From: Acidimicrobium ferrooxidans
Lineage (GTDB): Bacteria; Actinomycetota; Geothermincolia; Fen-727; Anoxymicrobiaceae
DNA: 64,000 nt
Direction: 5' to 3'
Assembly (NCBI GenBank): GCA_020723485.1
Contig: DYIU01000003.1
Location: 62,001 to 126,000 of the forward strand
Shown here: positions 2,057 to 57,900 of the stretch, one piece after another
How positions within the stretch are numbered: the first letter of the stretch is position 1
Layout of the letters: each line of letters starts with the position of its first letter
Notes under the pieces: generated by a model
Databases searched by the model: none
The model's input: the letters and a program-made list of their open reading frames with translations, nothing else
What the model was told of the DNA's origin: nothing
Translations under genes and position numbers: made by a program

Positions 2057-4513
2057 TCAAAAAGGGCCTGAGTGCCCCGGCTTGTTACCGTAATCAGGCA
2101 GCTGTGACTGCCATTTCTTGTACTCGTTCCAGGCCGGAGTCACACTCCCCGAGTAGGTCCAGAGGCCCGCGAAGCCGGCGTCCCACGAGGTCTGCGGGTC
2201 GACGTCCTGGAATATCCAGATCTTCCTGCAACCGGCGCCGAACAGGCCGCCGACGCCGACCTCGCCTATGGCCCTCCGCTGGCCCTCGTAGGAGAACTCG
2301 GCCTTGCCGGAGTGGGGCCAGCCTATCTCGGTGACCAGCACCTCCCTGCCCCCGTAGCCGTTCTTGGCGCATATGTTGACCACCGTCTGGTAATACCAGG
2401 CCCAGTAATCCGGGTAGTCGTACGGGTGCACCGCGATGCCGTCGCAGATGGTGGCGATGCTGACCGAGTTGTTGACACCGACGGTGGTCCTGCTGTTTGC
2501 TGGTAGTCCGACCAATTGGTTCTGTGTGGTCCCGTCTGCGAACATGTAGGTGACGGTGGCCGTCGCAGCGGAGCCCGATGGGTTCTGCAGGGTCAACCAC
2601 TCCTCGAAGCCTCCCCGGGTCGTCCCCTCGGCGAAGTACAGTGTCTTGCTGCCCTCGGTAGACCCCAGCTCAACGTCCCCTCCGGCCATGCTGTTCTTGT
2701 AGTTGTAGTAAAGAGGCCTCTCGACGACGATCGGCTGGCTCGGGGAGCTCAGCCTCACCGAGACGTCCTTGTCGTTGCCGACAGCCGCGTTGACGCTTAT
2801 GGTCTCACGTGAATGCGCGGCCACGGTTTTGTGCCCGGCCTGAGTGCCTCCCCCGGTGAACATGTAGGTGATGTCCACTTGGGCGGCGGCATCGCCCGGG
2901 TTCATGATGGAGATCCACTCCTCGAACGCGCCGTCGTGGGAGTTGTTCCTGGTCGTACCCTCCGCCAGGAACCAAGACGTCGCCGGGGTCACCGCTCCCG
3001 ACTGGGTGTGGCCGCCGGGCCATGCGCCGTGGTAGTTGAAATACATCGGGCGCTCGGCGAGCACCGGCCTTGTCGACTCGACCAGCGCGGAGACGTCTTT
3101 GTTCTCACCGACAATCTTGTTCACGTTGACCGTCTCTCGGGAGGTAGCGGGCATCGGAAAGCTCTGTACCTTCGTGCCGCCGCCGGGAAACATGTAGGTT
3201 ATCTTGATGGTGGCACCCGAGCTGTTCGGGTTCATGAGCGATATCCACTCTTCCATGCCCGGCTGGGTGGCGCCCTCGGCCAGGTACCACCTGGTGGACG
3301 GCTCCGAGATGCCCGACTCGATGGAACCGCCGGGGTACCTGCCCTGGTAGTTGAAGTACATCGGGCGCTCTACCACCACCGGCTGGACGGACTTTATCTT
3401 CGCGGAGACGTCCCTGTCCTGGCCGACCGCGGCGTTGACGTCCACCGTGTAGCGCGAGTTGGCCTTCATGGTGAAGTACTGGTCCTGCGTTCCCCCGCCG
3501 GGGAACATGTAAGTGATGTTCACGCCGGTATCCACGGCATTGGGGTTCTGAACGCTTATCCACTGCTCGAACCCGGTGTGGGTCGCTCCCTCCGCGAGGT
3601 ACCAGGTCGTTTTAGCTTCCTTGATGCCCTGCTCAACCGTCCCACCCTGCCAGGAGCCGTGGTAGTTGAAGTACATCGGGCGCTCGGCTACGATATCGGT
3701 GTCGCACTGGACCTTCATCGAGATGTCCTGGTTGCCCCCCGCCAGGAGCGTCTCGTAGTTGTAGAAGTCGTTTGAGGACCGGGTGATCCCGTTCAGCATG
3801 GCGCCCGTCGCCACGTACGACCCGTCACCGGGATCCGCCGCCTCGATGGCCTGGTACCCGGAGCGCAGCATGCCCATGTAATCGTAGTCGCAGCGCCCGG
3901 TGAAGTACTTCGTGCCCTCGGCGGCCGGCGGGGCGTCGATGTCCCAGCCCGGCTCCTGCCAGATCTGGTACCAGTCCACGTAATCCTTGTAGCGGGCGGC
4001 CACCGCTCCGCAGAAGTCGCCCCAGTCCTTCATGTTCTTGGGCGGCCCCATGTAAGAAGGCGCCGGCCACGACTTGTTCTCGGCCCAGCTCGGGACCGGA
4101 CCGGTGATGGTGAGCATTATCCCGTTGACGCCGAGGCTCAGGCAGTTGTTTATCTCGTCGTCCAGGCCGCTCCAGGAGAACTGGCCCTTGCCGTTCCGCT
4201 CGATCATCTTCCACTGCACGAAGATGCGGGTGTTCCGTATGGCCGGCCACTCGCCCGACGGTATCTTGGTCTTCATTATCCCTGCGACGTCCTCTGAGAA
4301 CAGGCCCATCACGTACCTGTCGCCGAGGCCGGCGCCGCTGAAGTCTCCCCCCAGAGCTCTCTGAGGGCCCAATACGGTCAATCGACCCGGACCCGTGCCG
4401 GACCCGCCGGGAGATACCATCAGCGCCGCTAGAACCACCGCCGCGCAGACGAAGGCTCCCGCCGCTACCTTCAGTGCCGTGCCTCTCCTGCGTTTCTGCA
4501 TAAAAAAACTCAC
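2057..4513 (-). CDS. Exported TIM-barrel glycosidase with a four-unit repeat domain inserted in the barrel
   Basis: 818 residues counted from a GTG at 4513; an ATG at 4501 is an equally good start. A signal peptide (MQKRRRGTALKVAAGAF...) is followed by the first part of a clan GH-A barrel (about 50-262): FVQWKMIERNGKGQFSW, then IWQEPGWD with the presumed acid/base Glu near 187. At about 263 the barrel is interrupted by a repeat domain (about 263-683, four units of about 105 residues with WYLAEG, NP and ERPMYFNY landmarks). The barrel then resumes with ICDGIAVHPYDYPDYW and VTEIGWPHSG, whose Glu near 729 is the presumed nucleophile. Removing the insert leaves the two Glu residues about 121 apart, normal for GH39-like enzymes. 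The residue before the acid/base Glu is Gln rather than the usual Asn. Likely secreted and acting on wall or capsular polysaccharide. The 142 bp upstream is unusually AT-rich and probably holds the promoter. Confidence 0.85.
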   Translation of the reverse strand: MSFFMQKRRRGTALKVAAGAFVCAAVVLAALMVSPGGSGTGPGRLTVLGPQRALGGDFSGAGLGDRYVMGLFSEDVAGIMKTKIPSGEWPAIRNTRIFVQWKMIERNGKGQFSWSGLDDEINNCLSLGVNGIMLTITGPVPSWAENKSWPAPSYMGPPKNMKDWGDFCGAVAARYKDYVDWYQIWQEPGWDIDAPPAAEGTKYFTGRCDYDYMGMLRSGYQAIEAADPGDGSYVATGAMLNGITRSSNDFYNYETLLAGGNQDISMKVQCDTDIVAERPMYFNYHGSWQGGTVEQGIKEAKTTWYLAEGATHTGFEQWISVQNPNAVDTGVNITYMFPGGGTQDQYFTMKANSRYTVDVNAAVGQDRDVSAKIKSVQPVVVERPMYFNYQGRYPGGSIESGISEPSTRWYLAEGATQPGMEEWISLMNPNSSGATIKITYMFPGGGTKVQSFPMPATSRETVNVNKIVGENKDVSALVESTRPVLAERPMYFNYHGAWPGGHTQSGAVTPATSWFLAEGTTRNNSHDGAFEEWISIMNPGDAAAQVDITYMFTGGGTQAGHKTVAAHSRETISVNAAVGNDKDVSVRLSSPSQPIVVERPLYYNYKNSMAGGDVELGSTEGSKTLYFAEGTTRGGFEEWLTLQNPSGSAATATVTYMFADGTTQNQLVGLPANSRTTVGVNNSVSIATICDGIAVHPYDYPDYWAWYYQTVVNICAKNGYGGREVLVTEIGWPHSGKAEFSYEGQRRAIGEVGVGGLFGAGCRKIWIFQDVDPQTSWDAGFAGLWTYSGSVTPAWNEYKKWQSQLPDYGNKPGHSGPF

Positions 4514-4655: not shown

Positions 4656-5846
4656 TCAGCCGGAGAGCACCTCGGCGGCGAATTCCGCGTAGCTCCTCGC
4701 CGAGAGCTGTATATCGTGATTCGTCAGTATGTACTGCCTGCTCCGACAGCCCAGCTCGAGGCGCTCTTCCGGGTTCTCGATGTAGAAGAGCAGCTTCTCC
4801 TCGAGCTCCTCCTCCTCGCGCTCCCCGGTGGTTATCTTCACGCAGCAGTCGTCCGGGAACTCCCGGAAGGCGTAGTGGTCGGACACCATCACGGGCCTGC
4901 CGGCGCCCATCATCTTGACGACGCTGCCGCTCGTCTCGCCGGCGCTCGGATGCCGGAGCGCAACGAAGATGTCCGGCACGTTCAGGTACTCCCTGAAAGT
5001 GCGGGTGTCCACGAAGCCGGTGAACACAACGTCCTCGTCGAGCCCCAGGTCCTCGATCCAGCGCGCCGCTTCACACCCGGGCATTATCTTTCCGACCAGC
5101 ATGAGCTTGACCTTGTTTCCCCGGGCCTTGATTCGGGCAAAGACCCTGAGCAGCGAGTCGATGCGCTTGCTCGACGTCATGTAGCCCAGGGAACCGATTA
5201 CGAACTCGTCGGGGCGGAAACCCAGTATCTCGCGCACCAGCTCGGGCGACCTCATGTGGTCCTCGGGCGGCGGTGCGTAATGGCTGGGGATCTTGCGTAC
5301 CCTGGCCAGCGGGTTTACTTCCAGAACCTTCTGCCTGGCGAACTCGCTGTGGACGATGACGCCCATGCTGCCGTCGACTATCCTGTCGAGCAGCGGGTAC
5401 TCGTACCAGGAGTTCTCGTCGCGGTCCTCCAGCGTGCTCTTCACTATGCTGGAGCGCTCCCCCTTGTAGCAGTAGTCGAGCTCGCGCAGGTACTCCCTCA
5501 GCCGGTTGTTCCCCACGGTCTGGGAGAACACGAAGTGGTGCAATACAGGCTCGTGCAGCACCACCACGCCGGGGTACTCCAGGCAGACGGAATAGATGTA
5601 GGAATGGACGTCGTTGTTGCCCATGTGGTAGATGTGCACGTCGTGGTCGTTCTTGCCGTGGTTCTCGAAAATGCGGCGGTAGCTGTGGATCCTGAAGTAG
5701 TCGTACAGCCATGAGCTTGAAGGCCGGTAATCATCGATGAAGAGCTCTATCCGGCCGTAGCCGGCCAGGTACTCGAGTAGCTCCTCCGAGTAATCCGACA
5801 CCCCCGACTTTATCGGGTTCAAAGGACTGAAGTAGGCGATCTTCAC
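4656..5846 (-). CDS. GT4-family glycosyltransferase
   Basis: 396 residues with a GT-B fold. The N-terminus MKIAYFSPLNPIKSGVSDYS is typical of family 4 retaining transferases. The C-terminal nucleotide-sugar domain starts near 200 (EFVIGSLGYMTSSKRID) and includes LRHPSAGETSGSVVKMMGAG, the counterpart of the EX7E segment in a subgroup where the second Glu is not kept (Met here). It is monocistronic or leads into the glycosidase gene downstream (142 bp gap), and is divergent from the next glycosyltransferase at 6084. Donor and acceptor cannot be deduced. Cytoplasmic, acting on a lipid-linked glycan. Confidence 0.88.
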   Translation of the reverse strand: MKIAYFSPLNPIKSGVSDYSEELLEYLAGYGRIELFIDDYRPSSSWLYDYFRIHSYRRIFENHGKNDHDVHIYHMGNNDVHSYIYSVCLEYPGVVVLHEPVLHHFVFSQTVGNNRLREYLRELDYCYKGERSSIVKSTLEDRDENSWYEYPLLDRIVDGSMGVIVHSEFARQKVLEVNPLARVRKIPSHYAPPPEDHMRSPELVREILGFRPDEFVIGSLGYMTSSKRIDSLLRVFARIKARGNKVKLMLVGKIMPGCEAARWIEDLGLDEDVVFTGFVDTRTFREYLNVPDIFVALRHPSAGETSGSVVKMMGAGRPVMVSDHYAFREFPDDCCVKITTGEREEEELEEKLLFYIENPEERLELGCRSRQYILTNHDIQLSARSYAEFAAEVLSG

Positions 5847-40926: not shown

Positions 40927-43667
40927 TATAGGCCGGTGTAGCCCTCGGCGAAGTACCAGGTGGTGGAGGGCGCCTTCACCCCGGCCGTATCGTGACCGTC
41001 GCGCCACCCGCCCTGGTAGTCGAAGTACATCGCCCGCTCTGCTATGACCTGCGCCCCGTTCACGCCCTCGACCAGCGTGGAGACGTCGGCGTTGTCAAAG
41101 CCGGGCTGCTCGTCTATGTGGATGGTGTACCGCGACCTCGCCTTGAGCGTGTCCGTGCGCGACCACTTGTGGCCGTCGCTCCTCATGAAGGTGGTCTTGA
41201 CCTGGACGGCGCTGTTGCCGGGGTTCATCAGCAGCACCCAGCTGTCGAAGGAGCCTCCGGTGTATCCTTCGGCCATGTACCAGCGCTCGGACAGCTCGCT
41301 GACGCCGGCCGCGTCGTGTCCCCCGTCGCGCCCGTCGGAGTTAAAATACATCGCCCTCTCCGCGATGACGCCCGCGTCGGAGCTCACCTCGGTGGAGACC
41401 TCCGCCGCGCCGAACCCCGGCACGTCGTCGACCTTGACGGTCTTCCGGCTCTTAGCCCCGAGCGTGTAGGAGACCTGCTTCTGGTACCCGTCTTTTCTGA
41501 GGAACGAAAGGGTCACCTTCGCGGGAGAGGTCCCCGGGTTCTGGACCAGGACGTAGGTGTCGTAGCTCTGCGCGGTGTAACCTTCGGGCAGGTACCAGTT
41601 CTGCTGCGGGCCGTTCACTCCCACCGCGTTGTGCCCTCCGATGAAACCGTTGTAGTTGAAGTACATCGAGCGCTCACATATCACGTCACCGGTGGCGTTC
41701 ACCTCGGTTGAGACCGACGCGTTCTCGAGCCCGGGCACGTCCTTGACGTTCAGGGTGAACCTGCTCTCCGCCTTCGCCTCGAACGACCTGTTGATCGGCG
41801 TGCCGCCCTCCCGCATGAACGTCATGTCTACCCGCACGTCGGATTTGCCGGGGTTCTGCACCGTGACGTACTCGTCGAAGTTGGGCGCGGTGTAGCCTTC
41901 CGCGAGGTACCAGTGCCGCGATGGGGCGGTCGCGCCGCACGAGTTGGTGCCGCCTTTCCACTTCCCCTGAAAGTTGAAGTACATGGAGCGCTCGCAGATT
42001 ATCGGCACATCAGAGGTCACCCTGGTGCTCAGGCCGACCCCGGGCATGTGCTGGTTCACGAAGACGGTCGAGCGGGACCCCGGCTTGACGGTCCAGTTGA
42101 CGGTCTTCTTCTCCGCCTTCTCGTTCATGAACTCTATCTTCGCGTTCGCCTTGGCCGTTCCCGGGTTCATGAGGGTGATGTACTCGTGGAAGTTCGCCGG
42201 CGGGGGCGGCGGGGGGGGCTCGTATCCGGTGAGGATGGCCCCGCTGTGGTCGGCGGTGCGCCTGAACATCGGCCACGGGAACAGGGCCGAATCGCTGCCG
42301 CTGCGCCTGGTGCCGCAGTCGAAGATATAGAAGCTCCCACCTCCGCTGTCAGCGCCGGTCCCCACCGCGGCCTCCACCTTCCCGTCCTTGTTGAAGTCAC
42401 CGACCGCGGGGGCGGTTAGCACGAAGTTGTCGAGCACCTGGTTCCAGACGCAGGTGCCCCAGGCGTTCCACGCGCCGATGGCCTGCCCGGAGCCCATGAT
42501 TATCTCCGGCTTACCGTCGCTGTCGACGTCGCCCATTGAAGGGGAGCCCCTGTTCGGCCCGCCGAAAGCGGCCTGCTGCCACAGGACCTGTCCGTTCCCC
42601 CTTATGAGCATCAGCGTGTCGGCGCCCCTGCCCGCCACAGGGTAGCTCGCTATGGCTATCTCCTTCATCCCGTCGCCGTCGATATCACCTATCGCGGGGG
42701 ATGACATGGTGCACCCGGCGGCCGCCACGGGCCACCCGGGTGCATCGGAGCCGTCGTGGTTCCAGGCGTAGACCCGGAACCCCTCGGTGGTGAGCCTTCC
42801 CGTGGCGGTGTAGTAATGGCCCGTTCCGACCACTATCTCGTAGTACCCGTCGTTGTCGATGTCGGCGCACGCCGGCGAGGACCATATGACCTCCGGTGTG
42901 CACTTGGGGAACCCGGGCTGGATGCCGCCGTCACCGTTGAAGACGAAGAGCAGCCCCCCGGCGGGGTAGGGCCACCCGCTCCCACCCGTGCAGTCGCCCC
43001 CGATCACGACTTCCTTCATGCCGTCCCGGTCCAGGTCGGCCAGGGCCGGCGAGGACCAGACGGTGTCCTTGCTGTCGAACGGCCAGCCCGGCAGCAGCCC
43101 TCCGCTGTAGCTCCACGCGTAGATGAAGTGGCCCCAGCAGCCCACCACCACGTCGGCGGCGCCGTCCCCGTTTATGTCGCCGACCGCCGGCGTCCCGTAC
43201 ACGCCGACGAAGCCGCTGATGTTGACGGTCTGCTTGGGCCAGCCCCACTGAGTCAGGTCCCAGCCGTTGCACGCGACACCCCAGACCACCCCGTTCATGT
43301 CACCGAAGAAGACTTCCTTGTTGCCGTTCCCGTCCACGTCGTAGCAGGCCGCTCCTCCCCTGATGGACGCGCCCACGTACTTCTGCCACCGGATGTCCCA
43401 GCCACCCTGCGCGTTGACTCCGAAGCAGTACATCGTCCCGTTCGTGTTTCCCGCCAGGACCTCGTCCCTGCCGTCGCCGTCGATGTCGGCCACGGTCGCC
43501 TTGGAATCATTGAACGTCGAGTTCACCGGGTAATGCTTGAGTATCGGCTTGTTGATGTTCGCCGACCGTGCCCTTCCCGGGAGCGCCATGAGCACGAGCG
43601 AGAGCGAGAGCAGGAGAACGACGAGCGCCGCCAGGCGCCTCCGTTCAGTGTGAATGACTGTAGCCAT
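40926..43667 (-). CDS. Exported FG-GAP propeller protein with a C-terminal four-unit repeat ring
   Basis: 913 residues from the ATG at 43667 (GAGGTGG upstream); an earlier in-frame start at 43727 would bury the signal peptide. After the signal sequence come eight calcium-loop repeats of FG-GAP/VCBS type (DIDGDGRDEVLAG, DVDGNGNKEVFFG, DINGDGAADVVVG and others), about residues 50-465, expected to form a beta-propeller. A Pro-rich linker (PPPPPPPANF) leads to the four-unit repeat domain (about 491-913), which starts at NFHEYITLMNPG without the WYLAEG strand and ends with the stub WYFAEGYTGL. Likely a cell-surface binding protein. The 245 bp upstream to rmlB holds a TATAAAT -10-like box but no firm promoter. 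Confidence 0.87.
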   Translation of the reverse strand: MATVIHTERRRLAALVVLLLSLSLVLMALPGRARSANINKPILKHYPVNSTFNDSKATVADIDGDGRDEVLAGNTNGTMYCFGVNAQGGWDIRWQKYVGASIRGGAACYDVDGNGNKEVFFGDMNGVVWGVACNGWDLTQWGWPKQTVNISGFVGVYGTPAVGDINGDGAADVVVGCWGHFIYAWSYSGGLLPGWPFDSKDTVWSSPALADLDRDGMKEVVIGGDCTGGSGWPYPAGGLLFVFNGDGGIQPGFPKCTPEVIWSSPACADIDNDGYYEIVVGTGHYYTATGRLTTEGFRVYAWNHDGSDAPGWPVAAAGCTMSSPAIGDIDGDGMKEIAIASYPVAGRGADTLMLIRGNGQVLWQQAAFGGPNRGSPSMGDVDSDGKPEIIMGSGQAIGAWNAWGTCVWNQVLDNFVLTAPAVGDFNKDGKVEAAVGTGADSGGGSFYIFDCGTRRSGSDSALFPWPMFRRTADHSGAILTGYEPPPPPPPANFHEYITLMNPGTAKANAKIEFMNEKAEKKTVNWTVKPGSRSTVFVNQHMPGVGLSTRVTSDVPIICERSMYFNFQGKWKGGTNSCGATAPSRHWYLAEGYTAPNFDEYVTVQNPGKSDVRVDMTFMREGGTPINRSFEAKAESRFTLNVKDVPGLENASVSTEVNATGDVICERSMYFNYNGFIGGHNAVGVNGPQQNWYLPEGYTAQSYDTYVLVQNPGTSPAKVTLSFLRKDGYQKQVSYTLGAKSRKTVKVDDVPGFGAAEVSTEVSSDAGVIAERAMYFNSDGRDGGHDAAGVSELSERWYMAEGYTGGSFDSWVLLMNPGNSAVQVKTTFMRSDGHKWSRTDTLKARSRYTIHIDEQPGFDNADVSTLVEGVNGAQVIAERAMYFDYQGGWRDGHDTAGVKAPSTTWYFAEGYTGL

Positions 43668-48232: not shown

Positions 48233-50443
48233 CTACAGGCCGGTGTAACCTTCCGCGAAGTACCACACGTTGGACGGGGAGGTCACGCCCACGGTGTCGT
48301 GGCCGCCGTCGCGCAAGCAGTAGCCGTCCGTGTAGACAAAATACACGGCGCGCTCCGCTATGACCTTCAACCCGTTCAGAGATTGGACTGTCGTAGCCAC
48401 CTCGGTGTCGGCGAGCCCCTCGACCTGGTCCACCGGTATGGTGAAGCGGGACCTCGCCTTGACCGTGTACTCTTTCTGAACCGAGCCGCCCCCGGGGGTG
48501 TTGAAGGTCACCCTGACCTGCGCGGGCGCGGCCTCGGGGTTCTGTATCATGACCCAGGTGTCGAACCTGCCCCCGGTGTAGCCCTCTGCCAGGTACCAGG
48601 TCTCGGCCGGTGACTGCACGCCTATGCTCGCGTGCCCGTCGTCGAGCCCGCAACCGTTGTAATCGAAGTACATGGCGCGCTCGGCTATGAACTCCACGCC
48701 GTTCGACGAGACCAGGCTCGTGGAGAACCCTGCGTTCTCGAGTCCGGCGATGTTGTCGGCGTGGACAGTGTACCGGGAGTGCGGCGCGAGCTCGTAGGTG
48801 CGCCTGATGTTCCTGCCGTCCTCCCTCATGAACGCGGCGTCCACCGAGCACACCTGCTCGCCGGGATTCTGCATGAGCACGTAAGTGTCGAACTTCTGCC
48901 CGGTGTAGCCTTCCGCCAGGTACCACGTCGGCGAGGGAGCGGTCACTCCGGGGCTGTTGCTCCCACCGTCCGCCCCGTAGTAATTGAAGTAGGACGAGCG
49001 CTCGGCGATTATGCCGTTGCCGTTGGTGCACTCGACCAGGGCGGAGACATCTGTCTCCTCGAGACCGGGGACCCCATCGAGCATGAGAGTCATTCGTGAA
49101 GCGGGCGGGGCCTGGGCGGTGTGCTCGATGGTCCCGCCGCCGGGCAGCATGAAGGTGAACCTGACGTCGGCCGGGGCCTGCTCGGGGTTCTGAACGGTGA
49201 TGTAGGTCTCGAAGGTGCCGCCGGTATACCCCTCGGCGAAGTACCATCGCTGCTGCGGGCTGGTCGCGCCGGCGCTCACGCTCCCGCCGTTGAAGCTGCC
49301 CCGGCAGTCGAAGTAGAGCGCGCGCTCGGCTATCACCGGCGCATCGGATACCACCTTGGTGGAGACCTCCTGGAACTGCAGGTAGTCGTTGACCTTGAGC
49401 GTGAACCGCGAGTTGGCGCCGACCTCCTCCGCCTGCACCGAGTTGGTGCCATCCGGCTGCATGAAGGTGAACGTGACGACGGTGGGCTGCGGGTTCGGGT
49501 TCAGGACGCAGATGTACTCGTCGAAGTTGGAGCGCACTATGTCGTACTTCGTGCTCTGGAATCCCAGGAGACCCTGGATGGTGCTCCCGGGGACCGACTT
49601 CACCCCCCCGGAGCCGGTGAGCCGCGCCGTCCGGACCCTGCCGCCGGGAGTCCTGTTCGAGAGGTCCATCACGTACAGGATCCCGACCGCGGTGTCCGAT
49701 CGGGAGTTGAGCCTCGCCTCCAGCTCCGACCGGCGGAATGTGGCGTTCCAGGAGTAACGAGGAGAGTACTGGCAGTACGAGTCGGGCTTTCCCCTCAGGT
49801 ACGGGATGGCCGAGCCGCCCCAGACGTCCTCGTTGTTCTCGGAGTGGCCCCCGCAGGAGCCGCAGTAAGCCGCGATTATCGGCTGGCCGTTGTAGGTCAT
49901 TATCTGGCCCACCGTGGCGTCTACAGCGGCGTTGTTGTTCGGGTAGTTGGGAATGTTCTTGTTCTCGTCGCACGCCTGGCAGCAGTCGCCGCTCGAGCAT
50001 ATGTCGAACCCCTGCGCCGTGTGCTTGTTCCGGGCGATGACGGACAGCGTGTAGGTCCGCGCCGCGACGTAGAGGGCCTTGAGCTCCTCCATGGGGTAGT
50101 TGTCGGGCTCCTCCTGTAGGTGATGCAGGTAATCGTGCATGGTCCATACCCGTATCTGCCCGTCGCGCCCCTTTACCCTGACGGGGCGGTTCTCGTCCGT
50201 GGCGGAAAAGGCGATGCCGGTGTAGTAGTAGCTGAGGATGGTGCGGTAGTCCTGACCTTCCTTGGCCCTGTAGTACACGCCGTCCATGCACATCCCGACG
50301 CCGTGCGCGCGGCCGGTGCCGCTGAAGTAGTAGACCGGGTCGCCGGCCCCGGCGCTCTCGGAAGAGGCCGGGCTCAGCACGAGCGAGAGCATCAGTGCCG
50401 CCATCAGCACGGCTGCTGGTATTCTTTTCCAGAAGTGCGACAT
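48233..50443 (-). CDS. Exported SpoIID-domain protein with a C-terminal four-unit repeat ring
   Basis: 736 residues. Signal peptide 1-30. Residues about 35-290 form a SpoIID/LytB domain: GTGRAHGVGMCMDGVYYRAK comes first, then MEELKALYVAARTYTLSVIA with the conserved Glu, and VGQIMTYNGQPIIAAYCGSC. SpoIID proteins cleave stem-peptide-free glycan strands or stimulate amidases, matching the amidase gene two genes upstream. The repeat domain (about 306-736) begins at NFDEYICVLNP without its WYLAEG strand and ends in the stub WYFAEGYTGL. Transcription probably starts at a promoter in the AT-rich 63-bp gap just upstream. Ribosome site AAAAGG. Confidence 0.87.
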   Translation of the reverse strand: MSHFWKRIPAAVLMAALMLSLVLSPASSESAGAGDPVYYFSGTGRAHGVGMCMDGVYYRAKEGQDYRTILSYYYTGIAFSATDENRPVRVKGRDGQIRVWTMHDYLHHLQEEPDNYPMEELKALYVAARTYTLSVIARNKHTAQGFDICSSGDCCQACDENKNIPNYPNNNAAVDATVGQIMTYNGQPIIAAYCGSCGGHSENNEDVWGGSAIPYLRGKPDSYCQYSPRYSWNATFRRSELEARLNSRSDTAVGILYVMDLSNRTPGGRVRTARLTGSGGVKSVPGSTIQGLLGFQSTKYDIVRSNFDEYICVLNPNPQPTVVTFTFMQPDGTNSVQAEEVGANSRFTLKVNDYLQFQEVSTKVVSDAPVIAERALYFDCRGSFNGGSVSAGATSPQQRWYFAEGYTGGTFETYITVQNPEQAPADVRFTFMLPGGGTIEHTAQAPPASRMTLMLDGVPGLEETDVSALVECTNGNGIIAERSSYFNYYGADGGSNSPGVTAPSPTWYLAEGYTGQKFDTYVLMQNPGEQVCSVDAAFMREDGRNIRRTYELAPHSRYTVHADNIAGLENAGFSTSLVSSNGVEFIAERAMYFDYNGCGLDDGHASIGVQSPAETWYLAEGYTGGRFDTWVMIQNPEAAPAQVRVTFNTPGGGSVQKEYTVKARSRFTIPVDQVEGLADTEVATTVQSLNGLKVIAERAVYFVYTDGYCLRDGGHDTVGVTSPSNVWYFAEGYTGL

Positions 50444-50506: not shown

Positions 50507-52888
50507 CTACCTTCCCGTATATCCCTCCGCGAAGTACCACGTCTGCGCGGGGCCCCTGACCGCGGGGGCGCAGGAGCCGCCGGGCTTCCCGGCGTACCGG
50601 AAGTACATGGAGCGCTCGACCACCACCGGACGGCTGCTCGCCATCACGGCGGACACCTCCTCCGAAGCCAGGCCCGGCTCGCCGTCCACCGGAAGTGTAT
50701 AACGCGAATGGGCGCTCACCCGGTACATCCTGTCAATGTACCGCCCGCTCGTGAGCATGAACCGCACCAGCAGGTCGGCGTCCTCGTCGCCCGGGTTCAA
50801 GACGGTGACGTAAGTGTCGAAGTCACCCGACGTGTATCCCTCGGCCAGGTACCATTCAGTTGCCGGCGCGGGGCACCCGAGGGCGTCGTGGCCCCCGGTT
50901 ATCCCGTTGTACGTGAAGTACATCGACCGCTCCGCGGCTATCGGCAGGTCGCTTTGAAGCTTCACCGAGAACGCCTTCGCGCTCCAGCCGCCTATCCTGT
51001 CTACGGCGACCGTACGCCGCGAGCGCGCGTCGACCGTTAACGACTTGTTGGCGGTGGACCCGTTCTCAGCCACCAGGGTCATGATGACGTTCGCAGGCGT
51101 GGCGGCGGGATTCGCTAGCAGGATGTATGAGTCGAATCCGCCGGCGGTGTACCCCTCGGCGAAATACCATTCGGTCGACAGGTACGGAAGGCCCTGGGAG
51201 TTGTGGCCCTCTCTGATCCCGTTGTAATCGAAGTACATCGAGCGTTCCACCACGACCGGGCGCCCGGAGGAGACCCTGGTCGAGAACTGGGCTCTCTCCA
51301 TCCCCGGGACCTGGTCCACCGCCACCGTGTACCTCGAGTACGGAGCCACGTTGCACTTGAGGTCCTGCGTGGCTCCCCCCTCGGTCATGAACGATACGGT
51401 GGTGTCTGCGACCTCGGCCCCGGGATTCTGGACGACGACGTAGGTATCGAATCCATAGTCGGTGCAGCCCTCCGCGAGGAACCAGTCGGTGGCGGGGGCG
51501 GTCGAGCCAGGGCTTGCGTGCCCCCCGGGGAACCTGTCCAGGTACCTGAAGTACATGGCCCGCTCGGCTATCACCCGGCCGCTCAGCACCTCGACTGTCG
51601 TGGAGGCTTCCTCATTGACCAGGGTGTCGTCCATCCTCACCGTTTTCCTGCTGAATGGCTCGAGGCTCCGCTCCTCTACCACCCTGCGGCCGTCCCTCAG
51701 CATGTAGGTAAGCCTTGCCCGCGCGCTCTCGCCGGCCGGGTTGCACATCACGATGTAAGTATCGAACGACTCGGGCTCGGGTTCGTTTATGACCCTCTTC
51801 CCCCAGGCGAAATGGTCGCTCCAGTAACCGGACAGGTAATCCACGCTGACGCCGGCGTTGCTTCCCGTGGAATGGATGAACAGGCCACGCCCTATGTACA
51901 TGCCGGCGTGCCCGACGTAGCTGGACGATGCCGGGTCCTTGTACCAGAATATCGGGTCGCCCGGCAGCAGCTGCTCTCTCGGGACCGTCTGGTAGCGCCC
52001 GTCGCGAGCCTGGTCGTCGGCGGTCCTCTGCATCGGGTAGCCCAGGTTGCTCTGCAGCACGAAGTAAGTGAGCCCGGAACAGTCGTAGCCTCCCTCCGCG
52101 TCGGACTCGCCGCCCCACACGTAGGGGTAGCCGACCTTGGCGAAAGCGCTGTCGAGCGCCCTGCCCCGCTGCGGCCCGGCCAGCGGGCTCTGGCAGCCGA
52201 GGCGGGTGAAGACCTCCTTCACGTACTCCAGGCGCCATTCATCGTACTCCTGCGCCTTCTGTATGCTGTAGGCGAGCTCTCCGCGCGGGTACGGGTTCAC
52301 CGGCCAGGCGCGCGTGTCCCTGTGCCTCAGGTGCAGGTCGCTGGCGACTATCGACTGGCCCGAGTAGGGAGGGGCCCCCGGCCAGAGACCCCACGCGCAG
52401 TAGGCCGGTCCGTCGGCCCCGTCGAGGCCGAGGCCTTTGACGAGCCCCGCCAGGCAGCTGACCGTGGAGTGAGTCTCGCTCGGCCTGAACGAGCCGTCCG
52501 GGTAAGGGTTCATGTAGCCGTGCTTGACGGCGATGTTCGCGTACCGGTAGTCGGGATTCGAATCGGCGAGGTCGGTGAAGTGGATCCCGGGGTCCGGCTG
52601 CTCGGACGCCCGGTTGAACACCTTGACCATCGTACACGCGTACTCGAGGCGCTTCACCGGCTCGTTCGGGTAGAAGTTGCCGTCGTCGGCGCCGTTCATG
52701 TAACCACGGCTCGTCACGTAGTCTATGGCGGCCTGGATGTCCGCGGGCTGGCCGGCGGTATCCGGGAACGTCTGCGCCAGTGTCAGGCCCGGGGCCAGCC
52801 CTGCCAGCACGAGCAGCGCCACGGAAGCAGCCAGCGCGGCCGCGGCCCTGCGCGAGCGCATGCCCGTTCCTGTTCCTGAAGCGCCCAT
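50507..52888 (-). CDS. S-layer-homology, NlpC/P60 endopeptidase with a C-terminal four-unit repeat ring
   Basis: 793 residues from the ATG at 52888, which shares a base with the amidase stop (TGATG). Signal peptide about 10-40. Two clear SLH units (FPDTAGQPADIQAAIDYVTS; FTDLADSNPDYRYANIAVKH) and a weak third cover about 40-215, which should bind the protein to a secondary wall polymer. NlpC/P60 follows (about 245-360): YDCSGLTYFV with the catalytic Cys, VGHAGMYIGRGLFIHST with the catalytic His and the polar third residue. The repeat domain (about 374-793) starts at SFDTYIVMCNP and ends in the stub WYFAEGYTGR. Expected to cleave peptide stems or cross-links at the cell surface. Confidence 0.9.
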   Translation of the reverse strand: MGASGTGTGMRSRRAAAALAASVALLVLAGLAPGLTLAQTFPDTAGQPADIQAAIDYVTSRGYMNGADDGNFYPNEPVKRLEYACTMVKVFNRASEQPDPGIHFTDLADSNPDYRYANIAVKHGYMNPYPDGSFRPSETHSTVSCLAGLVKGLGLDGADGPAYCAWGLWPGAPPYSGQSIVASDLHLRHRDTRAWPVNPYPRGELAYSIQKAQEYDEWRLEYVKEVFTRLGCQSPLAGPQRGRALDSAFAKVGYPYVWGGESDAEGGYDCSGLTYFVLQSNLGYPMQRTADDQARDGRYQTVPREQLLPGDPIFWYKDPASSSYVGHAGMYIGRGLFIHSTGSNAGVSVDYLSGYWSDHFAWGKRVINEPEPESFDTYIVMCNPAGESARARLTYMLRDGRRVVEERSLEPFSRKTVRMDDTLVNEEASTTVEVLSGRVIAERAMYFRYLDRFPGGHASPGSTAPATDWFLAEGCTDYGFDTYVVVQNPGAEVADTTVSFMTEGGATQDLKCNVAPYSRYTVAVDQVPGMERAQFSTRVSSGRPVVVERSMYFDYNGIREGHNSQGLPYLSTEWYFAEGYTAGGFDSYILLANPAATPANVIMTLVAENGSTANKSLTVDARSRRTVAVDRIGGWSAKAFSVKLQSDLPIAAERSMYFTYNGITGGHDALGCPAPATEWYLAEGYTSGDFDTYVTVLNPGDEDADLLVRFMLTSGRYIDRMYRVSAHSRYTLPVDGEPGLASEEVSAVMASSRPVVVERSMYFRYAGKPGGSCAPAVRGPAQTWYFAEGYTGR

Positions 52889-54777
52889 CACCTGGTGCAC
52901 CCCTCCGCGAAGTACCACTCGAGAGACGGCTGCGTTACGCCGAGAGCCGAGTCCCCACCGGACTTTCCCCCGTACGAGTAATACTTCGCCCTTTCGACCA
53001 CGAGCGGCCCGGCGCTCTCGACGGTGGTGGCGAACGCGACACCGCTCATACCACTGACGTCGTTGACCTTCACCGTGCGCCGCCTGTGCGCGGGCACCTC
53101 TATCCTGTGAGTACGCTCGCTCCCGTCCTCGAGCATGAAGCTGAGCAGGGCCTCGGTGTCGGCGTCACCCGGGTTCATGAGCAGCACGTAGGTGTCGAAC
53201 CCCGGCCCCGTGTAGCCCTCGGCCAGGTACCACCTGCTCGCAGGCTCGAGCACCGCGGTGGAGTTGGTGCCCTCCGCTATCCCGTTGTAGTCGAAGTACA
53301 TCGACCTCTCGGCGATGACGGGGGAGCCCGATTCCACCAGGAACGAGACATCGGTGTTCTCGAGGCCGGGCACCTCGTCGACGTGCACGGTGCGCCTGCT
53401 CTGGGGTGCGAGCCGGTAATCCCGCGAGATCGCGGCACCGTCCGGGAGTATATATGTCACCCTTGCGGTGGCGGCCGAGCCCTCGGGGTTCTGAAGCGTG
53501 ACGTACGTGTCGAAGTCCCCACCGGTGTAGCCCTCAGCCATGTACCAGCGGGTGCCGGGCGCGGTCAGTCCCGCCGAGTCGTGCCCGCCCGACGCCCCCT
53601 TGTAGTCGGTGAAGTACATCGCCCGCTCGACCACCACCGGCGACTGGGCGTTGACCTTGACCGAGAAGTCGGCCTCCTCCACTCCCTCGACCGTCGAGCA
53701 GTCGAGCGTGAACCTGGAGTGCGGGGCCAGCTCGTATGTCTCCTGCGCATTGAACCCGTCGTCGCGCATGAACTGTATCGTGACGTAGGTCTCCGAGTCG
53801 GCAGGATTCTGGACGACCACGTACGTGGAGAATCCCCAGTCCGTGGAGCCCTCCGCAAGGTACCACTCGTAGGCCGGCGCCGTTATCCCCGGCGACCCGT
53901 GGCCCCCGGAGCCCCCCGCGAAATCGAAGTACATGGCCCTTTCGGCGACCACCGGCACCCCGTTCGTGCTCTTCACCAGCGTGGCGACGTCGTTGTTGAA
54001 CACAAACTCGTCCAGGTGTACCGTGCGCCTGGTCCGCGGCGGCACCAGCTCCGGGTAGACCTCCTCCAGTCCGTCGCCCCTCATGTAGTGCATCTCCACC
54101 TCGGCGGCCCTCTCCGGGTCCGGGTTCGTGAGGAGGACGAATTCGTCGAAGCGCCCGGGGTCGATGAGGTAGAAGTAAATGCCCGCCGCCACTCCGTCGG
54201 CGATCTGCTGACGGAACTCCGGGTCCTGCAGGAGCCCGGCCTCCTCGGCGTTGGAGACGAAGGCGCCCTCGATGAGCGCCGAAGTCATGTCCGTGTTGCG
54301 GAGCACGTAGAAGCCGGCCTCCTTGACGCCCCTGTCCGGGCGCTGGATGCGCCTCACGACCTCCGTGTGTATGCACGTCGCCAGGCGCTTTCCCTCGGGC
54401 GAATCGTAGTATGAGTAGGTCTCGGTCCCCTGGCTGGTCGTCATGTAGGCGTTGTTGTGGATGCTCACGAAGATGTCCGCGTGGGCCGAGTTGGCGATCT
54501 GGCAGCGCTGCTCGAGCGATAGCGTCACGTCGGTCGTGCGTGTCATGATGACCCTGTAGCCAAGCGATTGGAGGATGGGCCTCACGCGCAGCGCGATGTC
54601 GAGGTTGGGGTCCTTCTCCATGACGCCGTTGTAGTTCGCCCCGGAGTCGTCCCCGCCGTGTCCCGGGTCCAGGCACACAAGGGCGGCCCCGCCGCCCTCA
54701 TCGGCGGAGCGGACGGCCGGCGCGGCTCCCAGCAGGAGCAGCGCCACGGCCGCGGCTACGATCAGCTTTCTGGCCAT
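52888..54777 (-). CDS. N-acetylmuramoyl-L-alanine amidase (amidase_3) with a C-terminal four-unit repeat ring
   Basis: 629 residues from the ATG at 54777; a TTG at 54795 in frame is less likely because the signal peptide begins MARKLIVAAAVALLLLG. The amidase_3 domain (about 30-205) has all four landmarks: CLDPGHGGDDSG (zinc His), VMEKDPNLDIA (zinc Glu), FVSIHNNAYM (zinc His) and ALIEGAFVSNAEE (catalytic Glu). The repeat domain (about 209-629, 421 residues) starts at RFDEFVLLTNP and closes with the stub WYFAEGCTR. It cuts between muramic acid and the stem peptide. A hairpin with a T-run lies between its promoter region and the start codon. Confidence 0.92.
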   Translation of the reverse strand: MARKLIVAAAVALLLLGAAPAVRSADEGGGAALVCLDPGHGGDDSGANYNGVMEKDPNLDIALRVRPILQSLGYRVIMTRTTDVTLSLEQRCQIANSAHADIFVSIHNNAYMTTSQGTETYSYYDSPEGKRLATCIHTEVVRRIQRPDRGVKEAGFYVLRNTDMTSALIEGAFVSNAEEAGLLQDPEFRQQIADGVAAGIYFYLIDPGRFDEFVLLTNPDPERAAEVEMHYMRGDGLEEVYPELVPPRTRRTVHLDEFVFNNDVATLVKSTNGVPVVAERAMYFDFAGGSGGHGSPGITAPAYEWYLAEGSTDWGFSTYVVVQNPADSETYVTIQFMRDDGFNAQETYELAPHSRFTLDCSTVEGVEEADFSVKVNAQSPVVVERAMYFTDYKGASGGHDSAGLTAPGTRWYMAEGYTGGDFDTYVTLQNPEGSAATARVTYILPDGAAISRDYRLAPQSRRTVHVDEVPGLENTDVSFLVESGSPVIAERSMYFDYNGIAEGTNSTAVLEPASRWYLAEGYTGPGFDTYVLLMNPGDADTEALLSFMLEDGSERTHRIEVPAHRRRTVKVNDVSGMSGVAFATTVESAGPLVVERAKYYSYGGKSGGDSALGVTQPSLEWYFAEGCTR

Positions 54778-54797
54778 CAGTCCCACAACCCTCAAAG

Positions 54798-54839
54798 AAA
54801 AAACCAGGCGCGACCGGAGGACGACCTCCGGCTCCCTGG
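54798..54839 (-). terminator. Intrinsic terminator, possibly an attenuator before the amidase gene
   Basis: On the minus strand CCAGG...CCTGG encloses CCGGAGG-TCGT-CCTCCGG, followed at once by TTTTTT. It stands 105 bases after the stop of the 54944 gene and 21 bases before the amidase ATG. A possible -10 (TAAAAT) and AT-rich leader lie between 54840 and 54900, so it may also regulate the amidase gene. Confidence 0.65.
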
Positions 54840-54934
54840 CAAAAGGATTCTTATTCTGTTCGGTTCAACATTTTAACACAGATTTACTTCTCTCATCGGT
54901 ACGGCCGCTCCTTCGCATGAGCGGCGTGCACAAC

Positions 54935-54946: not shown

Positions 54947-57900
54947 GCGGCCGCGGACGCCCAGGGACCCGGTCCCGCCGCTGCGGCCGTTGAAGTAGAG
55001 CGACCGCTCGACGATCACCGGGCCGTTCGCGCTCACTTTCGTGCTTACCTCCGCGGCCGGCAGCACGTCGTCCACGCTCACCGTGAACCGGCTCCGCGCG
55101 CCCACGGTATAGGAGCGGTAGGTGTTCATGCCCCCGGGCTCCATGAAAGTCATCGTCACCGCGCGCGCGTCGTCTCCCGGGTTCTGAACGGTCAGGTAGG
55201 TCTCGAAGCCCTGGTCAGTGTAGCCTTCTGCCAGGTACCACTCGGAGTCGGGCGTCGGCGTGCCTATGCACGCGTGTCCGTCGGAGCGGTCGTTCCAGTA
55301 CATCGCCCTCTCGACCAGCACCGGGTGCTGGGCGCGGACCTTCACGGAGATCTCGCTCGCCTCGAGATACGCGTCGGCGAGCACCGTGAAGCGAGTCTGC
55401 GGCGGCAGGAGGTACCTCTTGAAGGTGTTCGAGCCGTCCGGCTCCATGAATATGACGGTCACGTTGTTGTACGAGTCCTGCGGATTCTGTATGACCACCC
55501 AGGTCTCGAAGCCCTGGTCTGTGTAACCCTCCGCCAGGAACCAGGTCCTCGAGGTGGAGCACGCTCCCAGCGAACACGTCCCGGAGGTCATGTAATTAAG
55601 GTACTGCGCCCTCTCCACCACCACCGGCTGGGAGCTCTCTATGGCGGTCGACACCGACTGCGCCGGGATGACGTCGTCGACGTGTATCGTGAAACGCGAG
55701 CGCGCCCCCACCTGGTACTGCCTGGTCTCGTTTCCGGCGCCGGGGGTCATGAAAGTCGCGGTGACATCCGCTGCGGTATCGCCGGGGTTCTGCACCAGCA
55801 CGTACTCGTCGAAGTCATCGGCGGTGTAGCCTTCGGCTAGGTACCACGTCTTCGAGGGCTCGGAGACGCCTATCGAGTCGTGCCCCGCCCGCCTGTCATT
55901 GAAATACATGGCCCGCTCCACCGCGACCGGCCGGTCCGAGCTGACTCGGGCGCTCACCTCGGCGTCCGGCAGTATCTCGTCCACCGTTATGGTGAACCGG
56001 CTCGCCGCCGGCACCGTGTATGACCGCTCTACGTTGGCGCCGCCCGGCATCATGAACGTCACTTCCACCGCGGCGGGCTGCGCCTCCGGGTTCTGAATCG
56101 TGATGTACTCCTCGAACTCTCCCCCCGTGGCGTTCCGGCCCGTGAACCCCTCCGCGAGGTACCAGTCGAGAGCGAGGTCCGGCACGGAGTTGTTCACGAA
56201 GACGGGTGCGGCCGCGGGGCGCAGCTCGTGGGCCGCGTCCTCCGGCACGGCGTCGATCCTGGCGGTGTAGACGCCGTCACCGACCACCGCACCTCCGCCG
56301 TCCCGCCCATCCCAGGTGAAACTCGACGCCCCGGCGCCCCTGTCGGCTGAGGCGAAGGACCGTACCCTCTGCGACCCCTCCCATATGGAGGGGCTCACCT
56401 CGGACGCGAGCGGGAGGTTGTACGATACGGTGGCCGCGTCGTTCACGCCGTCCGAGTTGGGGCTGATGGCGTGCCCGCCCGCGCTCATCCCTGTGATGTC
56501 GGCGACGTTCCTCCGCGCCGGCGCGGGCAGCAGCGTCGGGTTCGTGACGGTCGGCGGGCTACCCGCGCTCGCGAAATCGAGGACAGGCACCCTGTCGGCT
56601 TCACTTGCGGCCGCCCAGTCCGCCCGCGGGAAGACGGGCACCTTGAGCGGATAGGCGGAAGGCTCGTAGTACAGGGCGTCATCGGGTACGTCCAGGGTGA
56701 GGCCGGCCGCCGCGTCTATGAGGCCCAGGCTCGACACGCCCCTCGGGTAGTATCCCAGGCTCTGCTCATAGGTCGTAGCAGCGGCGCTGCGGGTCCCGCC
56801 GCCGCTCCTCCCGGGGAGCGCCGGGGTGAGCCTCTCGGAGGCGCCTCCGCCCGTGCCGCCCGGGTAGACCACCACGTCCCAGAAAGTCCCCCAGAGGCTC
56901 TTGGCAAAGTACTGCTCGAGGCTCCAGTATCGCGCCCAGAGCGCGGTGGGATTGGCTCCGTTGAGGTTGACCCCGAGCATGCATGCCGCCTGGTCGCGCC
57001 AGACGTTCTGAGACACCCACTCGTTGTAGGCGTCGTAGCTGGAATGGGTGCACCCGTAGGTCTTTAGGGTAGCGGCAGTGGAGTTGGCGAGGTCGGTGCG
57101 CATCCTCGCCGTGTTCGTCGAGGTGAACCCGGCGGCGCGCGTCCCGTTGAGCAGGTATACCAGGCCGTTGGACGGGTAGATGCTGTACGCCTCCCTGTCC
57201 TCCGCGAGCACGTCCGAGTCCCAGGCCACCGCGAAATGGTCGGAGAGCCACATGTCGTAGTCGAGAGCCTGGTTTATCGCCTCGACCTGGCCCTGGCACG
57301 CCGCGGCGAACGTGACGTTCAGGGCGGTGGGATCGGCCAGCGCCATCTCGCGCGCGGCCCGGTGCGCCGCCAGGCACTTTACGCCCAGGTACGCCTGGTC
57401 CTTCCCGAACTGGATCGCGAGTGAGCCCTGGTCCACGGTGTTGCCGGTGTACTGGTCCGGCATCCCGTTGCCGTTCGTGTCGCAGTTGGTCATGAATCCC
57501 GCGAGCTCCCTCACGAGCGCGAGCTTGCCTTTCATGTATGACGTGTCCCCGGTCGACTTCCAGTACTTGTAGAGCATGAGGATGTAGTTCGCGTTCTCCT
57601 CCACCGCCATGTTGTTCGGGTAAGCCTGCCCCGTGGCGGCGTCCCCCATTCCCATGTCGTGCGACATGTAGACGCCCTGCTGCGCGGTCTTCGTATACAG
57701 TGCCCACTCATCCATCGTCATCTTCAGAAGGTCGGGCCAGAAATAGTAATAGAACCACGCCTGGTTGTACTCGGCGTCGATGGTGCTGTGGAACCTGCAG
57801 GTTCCCTCCCAGGTGCTGAACCACTCTCTAGCGTAGTCGGACACGGCCCACCAGGTGTTCATCAGGTAACTCTGGAAGCCGTAGGCCATGAGCTCCTTCG

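Follow-up and report, generated by a model that had tools for sequence, protein, structure and literature searches.

An 818-residue open reading frame in the analysed window (the whole 64,000-nucleotide stretch, positions 62001-126000 of contig C11 of genome G000, which is 3.36 Mb in size) probably encodes a PslG-like retaining glycoside hydrolase that carries, in its alpha5-beta6 loop and opposite the active site, a self-closing pseudo-tetramer of four ASRAH domains. Computation gave a single barrel with its catalytic pair, the site of the insert, its four units, permuted registers, homologues in which the site is empty and inheritance of the units by position. The reading frame is intact and is laid out as follows.

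2057..4513, minus strand: 818-residue ORF, predicted secreted PslG-like (clan GH-A) barrel with a nested four-ASRAH-domain ring (sequence, AlphaFold2, Foldseek, profile)
4394..4513, minus strand: putative signal peptide or N-terminal hydrophobic segment, about residues 1-40 (sequence MSFFMQKRRRGTALKVAAGAFVCAAVVLAALMV, by eye)
3728..4333, minus strand: barrel part 1, residues 61-262, beta1 to alpha5 (predicted secondary structure, homologue alignments)
3953..3955, minus strand: codon of Glu187 (WQEPGW), presumed acid/base, aligned with PslG Glu165 (profile alignment)
2459..3727, minus strand: insert, residues 263-685, with four units and in permuted register C (phase 1 to 99) (sequence, unit census, model)
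3413..3727, minus strand: insert unit 1, residues 263-367 (sequence; model strand 223-242, pLDDT >90)
3098..3412, minus strand: insert unit 2, residues 368-472 (sequence)
2768..3097, minus strand: insert unit 3, residues 473-582 (sequence)
2459..2767, minus strand: insert unit 4, residues 583-685 (sequence)
2060..2458, minus strand: barrel part 2, residues 686-818, beta6 to alpha8 (C-flank alignment, model)
2327..2329, minus strand: codon of Glu729 (VTEIGW), presumed nucleophile, aligned with PslG Glu276 (profile alignment)

The first-pass annotation had described one clan GH-A barrel split by a repeat insert, and the two points at which it is interrupted were found where that annotation had placed them: LLAGGNQ, after which the barrel breaks, occupies residues 256-262, and the barrel resumes at ICDGIAVHPYDYPDYW from residue 689. 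A barrel profile (A6) was built from eight barrels, two of them naturally insert-free and the other six aligned with the insert removed, and its best match among solved structures is PslG (GH39; E 1.9e-9). This match covers profile positions 50-332 of 352 in a single stretch over both flanks and across the junction; the runner-up matches, the beta-xylosidases 4m29/4ekj (E 2e-7), cover the N-terminal half only. An AlphaFold2 model of residues 41-818 (pLDDT 82.5, pTM 0.83) contains one barrel, with all eight beta/alpha elements present in order and the insert between alpha5 and beta6, and PslG also heads the Foldseek hits to the full model. Flanks that fail to join, or that match different families, were looked for and did not occur, and the profile, the full-chain model and the empty-site homologues described below together bear out the split barrel. 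In TIM barrels the alpha-to-beta loops face away from the active site, and the position of the insert in the alpha5-beta6 loop therefore places it on the opposite face.

The profile alignment pairs Glu187 and Glu729 with PslG Glu165 and Glu276, which are the acid/base and the nucleophile, respectively (PMC11912335, PMC9075953), and the two glutamates lie at beta4 and beta7, where such a pair is expected. The claimed distance of 542 residues between them was confirmed; the insert measures 423 residues rather than the 421 first counted, leaving 119 instead of about 121 between the glutamates of the insert-free barrel, compared with 111 in PslG. Searches with Pfam and NCBIfam returned no glycosidase family above cutoff for the whole window protein or its flanks, and phmmer of the joined barrel against the PDB gave no match, PslG surfacing only with the homologue profile. 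Across the barrels the Pfam GH39 model found no match; only GH42, GH5 and GH10 did, in some members and mostly weakly, and the few family matches were GH42-like. The GH39 assignment thus holds in the sense that PslG is the nearest relative, but not by the GH39 family model itself. Taken together, sequence and modelling point to a secreted retaining glycoside hydrolase of clan GH-A, PslG/GH39-like, as the candidate activity.

The split barrel is found throughout the class, with named records that include Candidatus Geothermincola and Solincola (Actinomycetota), and both the insertion site and the register are always identical in the relatives examined. Homologues without the insert, which the first-pass annotation had suggested seeking, also exist: L074 and L075 align straight through the site and form one clade (support 100/99). 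Across nine genomes of the order, unit i is best matched by unit i in 283/288 comparisons, which argues that the four-unit insert has been inherited as a whole within the order.

The insert itself belongs to a recognizable type of domain. Pfam detects four DUF5719 stretches in the window protein (E 3e-16; 59.7 bits against a cutoff of 26.2), and the ASRT model (PF07100) scores 20.7 bits on it, below its curated cutoff of 25. Unit by unit, Foldseek gave TM1070 and ASRT as the closest structures, the top matches having a TM-score to target of 0.82-0.84. The signature given for the ASRAH superfamily is a conserved Trp in the first strand and an Asn at the end of the second (PMC2739507); the Trp is kept in the window units as the W of WYLAEG, with Leu in unit 4, and the Asn as the N of xxNP in 4/4 units. 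By eye, these units lack the His/Cys pair of the TM1070 pocket. Each unit of the insert is, on predicted fold and shared motifs, an ASRAH domain (TM1070/ASRT fold, Pfam DUF5719-like). De Souza, Iyer and Aravind (2009) present TM1070 as a tetramer, predict sugar binding for the superfamily and describe secreted versions as dyads or, when fused to an amidase, as tetrads (PMC2739507). The insert is not a product of chance, given the four DUF5719 stretches, 149 matches in the same genome, the shared site and register across the class and the positional matching of units.

Units were counted by running a unit model on the repeat regions fetched from this genome and on loci of four relatives. With truncated arrays removed, the sample comprised 131 complete arrays from five genomes; arrays with runs of N (X) were left out of the counts (L107:1471-4860, L119:1-2289 and L135:3101-4444). 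Exactly four units are present in 125/131 arrays, the number of the ASRAH tetrads, and one array has about eight. The phase at which an array ends returns to the phase at which it starts, with a median circular gap of 1 residue (IQR -3 to 3; within 15 residues in 111/113 arrays). Three registers, A, B and C, are represented by 106/12/6 arrays. Register A consists of four whole ASRAH domains; in register B, visible among the paralogues in the window, the WYFAEG strand no longer heads the first domain and has moved to the protein C-terminus; register C is the inserted form, which the glycosidase shares with one other, unrelated host (L093 twice, L200). Because the register shifts while the total is kept at four, these are circular permutations, which need both chain ends to lie in one domain.

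The insert starts at D[IV]S and stops at the VN..VS/VG turn, and its units are 105, 105, 110 and 103 residues long, unit 3 having a 5-residue extra loop that is kept at the same position within the order. It had been said to start and end in mid-unit, which is so if units are counted from WYLAEG, but from D[IV]S there are four whole units; the mid-unit start depends on the chosen unit origin, yet is informative. The barrel model shows the insert's first strand (model residues 223-242) as a full strand with pLDDT >90, and when a register-B array was folded alone (pLDDT 91.4, pTM 0.90) its C-terminal WYF strand at residues 431-436 was also formed, with pLDDT ~94. We infer that the first strand of unit 1, which precedes any WYLAEG start, completes the domain that unit 4 begins. 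When the isolated ring was searched with Foldseek, the matches were single domains, and none was a solved structure with the entire ring in one chain. The constancy at four units, the return of phase in three registers and the formed displaced end strands support the prediction that the four-unit block is a closed single-chain pseudo-tetramer; the closure of this presumed ring is deduced from DSSP, pLDDT and pTM of the predictions.

A closed ring had also been argued from the insertion itself, on the ground that a loop can accept a domain only if its ends are close. The ring is supported by the census, the registers and the models, but that argument is weak alone because two tandem CBM4 modules are inserted in a GH10 barrel and because the site is occupied by 1, 2, 3 or 5 units in some homologues. 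These same facts would suit four independent beta-sandwich beads in a row, each with close ends and forming no closed ring: one unit is present in L072 and L080 (degenerate), two in L084, three in L078, L081, L082 and L083 and five in L073:2296-5064 (G002:C103), and the two CBM4 modules are a ringless precedent (PMC7848910). The variation in number is in part open to another explanation, since exact DNA repeats of 150 bp or more lie within 4/5 of the two-or-three-unit arrays in the census versus 3/125 of those with four units (Fisher p 1.5e-5), a pattern that collapse of near-identical units in short-read assembly, or their loss by recombination, would produce. Some of it may be real, because L082, L083 and L084 have at most 73 bp of exact repeat between units. 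The exceptions suggest that four units are not strictly required, unless they are degenerate copies or the result of assembly collapse; most of them are either degenerate or built of near-identical units in which such collapse could have occurred. We nonetheless consider a row of beads improbable: it is opposed by the near-constant count of four across five genomes, by the return of end phase to start phase in each of the three registers, by the pTM of the isolated array and by single-domain relatives that are homotetrameric (PMC2739507). An initial reading of the unit-number variation as refuting the ring was set aside after the census. The five-unit array of L073, which is degenerate in its first half-unit and in its last unit, could be a step in shifting the ring opening.

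Two further explanations concern the barrel and the gene. A decayed or non-catalytic barrel, serving as a carrier for a ring that is the functional part, would fit the lack of a Pfam glycosidase model at cutoff and the presence of WQEPGW instead of the usual NEP at beta4. We reject it as very unlikely, since both glutamates are invariant in 8/8 aligned barrels, Glu729 is present in 25/25 aligned C-flanks and the f5 relatives retain WNEPGWD. That the fused gene is an assembly chimera of a glycosidase gene and a ring gene, the abundance of ring genes in this genome being a setting for misjoins, is in practice refuted and has a negligible chance of being correct: both junctions are in frame, many independent assemblies show the same site and register, and the units are orthologous by position.

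The gene for the split barrel, which we continue to read as a PslG-like hydrolase with a nested four-domain ring, lies next to a glycosyltransferase gene.

4656..5846, minus strand: glycosyltransferase (Glycos_transf_1) directly upstream of the split-barrel ORF, a pair that recurs in relatives

A same-strand glycosyltransferase gene is directly upstream of the split-barrel gene in the window, L062, L070, L064 and L077, and one is directly downstream in L077 and L079; the gene for PslG is similarly placed in the psl exopolysaccharide cluster (PMC11912335). In the mechanism we propose, the pseudo-tetramer would close as the insert's leading strand completes its last ASRAH domain, and, with both ends of the insert in one domain, it could be joined to a short barrel loop. 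The ring may then bind a surface glycan and so tether the enzyme, and the barrel may act on an exopolysaccharide that the neighbouring glycosyltransferases produce, in the manner of PslG and the psl cluster. The simplest reading, by analogy, would be a ring-tethered PslG-like endoglycosidase of surface polysaccharide.

Several known systems resemble parts of this protein. PslG of Pseudomonas aeruginosa (GH39; PDB 4zn2, 5bx9, 9g17) is the best profile and fold match of the barrel, with both catalytic glutamates aligned, and is likewise a glycosidase whose gene lies among glycosyltransferase genes of an exopolysaccharide cluster (PMC11912335, PMC9075953), but it has no insert between alpha5 and beta6, and its similarity to the window barrel is distant. 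The ASRAH superfamily (ASRT, TM1070; Pfam ASRT, DUF5719) shares fold and motifs with the window units, and its published account already includes secreted amidase-fused tetrads and suggests tetrameric assembly (PMC2739507). The accessible part of that account contains neither nesting in another domain nor circularly permuted registers, whereas here there are three registers and about 75-80 copies of the ring in one genome. The GH10 xylanases Pm25 and Xyn10C also have binding modules nested in a clan GH-A barrel, but theirs are two modules of another family, CBM4, between beta3 and alpha3 (PMC7848910), whereas the window enzyme carries four modules in a closed set between alpha5 and beta6, on the opposite barrel face. 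Within the same genome, L134:10156-12396 (G000:C11) joins the same ring and a GH17-like clan GH-A barrel in one chain, with the ring un-nested and N-terminal to the barrel. Our literature search on single-chain permuted tetramers returned nothing fitting. Nested binding modules in glycosidase barrels and ASRAH tetrads were thus already known; what is new is the combination of a nested ring with a PslG-like barrel, the evidence for closure that comes from natural circular permutations of a single-chain pseudo-tetramer, and the repeated use of the ring in one genome. If correct, this would offer protein engineering a natural four-fold scaffold that can be inserted in a loop and, for an uncultured class of actinobacteria, a testable candidate for the means of surface attachment.

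The about 75-80 ORFs of this genome with a four-unit ring include five others in the window.

40929..42203, minus strand: four-unit ring, register B, with the WYFAEG strand at the extreme C-terminus, after FG-GAP repeats
48236..49540, minus strand: four-unit ring, register B, after a SpoIID domain; folded alone, pTM 0.90
50510..51787, minus strand: four-unit ring, register B, after SLH and NlpC/P60 domains
52891..54231, minus strand: four-unit ring, register B, after an N-acetylmuramoyl-L-alanine amidase
54947..56197, minus strand: four-unit ring, register A, C-terminal in a 1562-residue protein (malectin, GtaA six-hairpin)

The four register-B rings are a one-strand circular permutation of the register-A ring at 54947-56197, and the gene at 52891-54864 has the amidase-tetrad architecture published for ASRAH (PMC2739507). 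By a simple length rule, the ring is C-terminal in 63 cases, N-terminal in 5, internal in 5 and alone or nearly so in 8. The other rings are joined to secreted enzymes and binding domains, among them TIG, subtilase, SpoIID, YkuD, M23, amidase and polysaccharide deacetylase, which would suit a part that serves surface binding in general. It is conceivable, although we hold this as a tentative and rather doubtful proposal, that the ring is a circularly closed plug-in module, opened at three points and fused to more than 70 secreted proteins at either end or internally, that holds enzymes at the cell surface through one shared envelope glycan in a role akin to SLH, LysM and CWB2. The second host of an inserted, register-C ring (L093:4178-7564 and L093:7483-10959 in G000:C3; L200 in G001:C21) has helical-looking flanks with no Pfam match. 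A single protein in the window, at 50510-53164, combines SLH domains, NlpC/P60 and the ring, and a 2024-residue ORF at L104:3753-9824 (G000:C3) has about eight units, equal to two rings.
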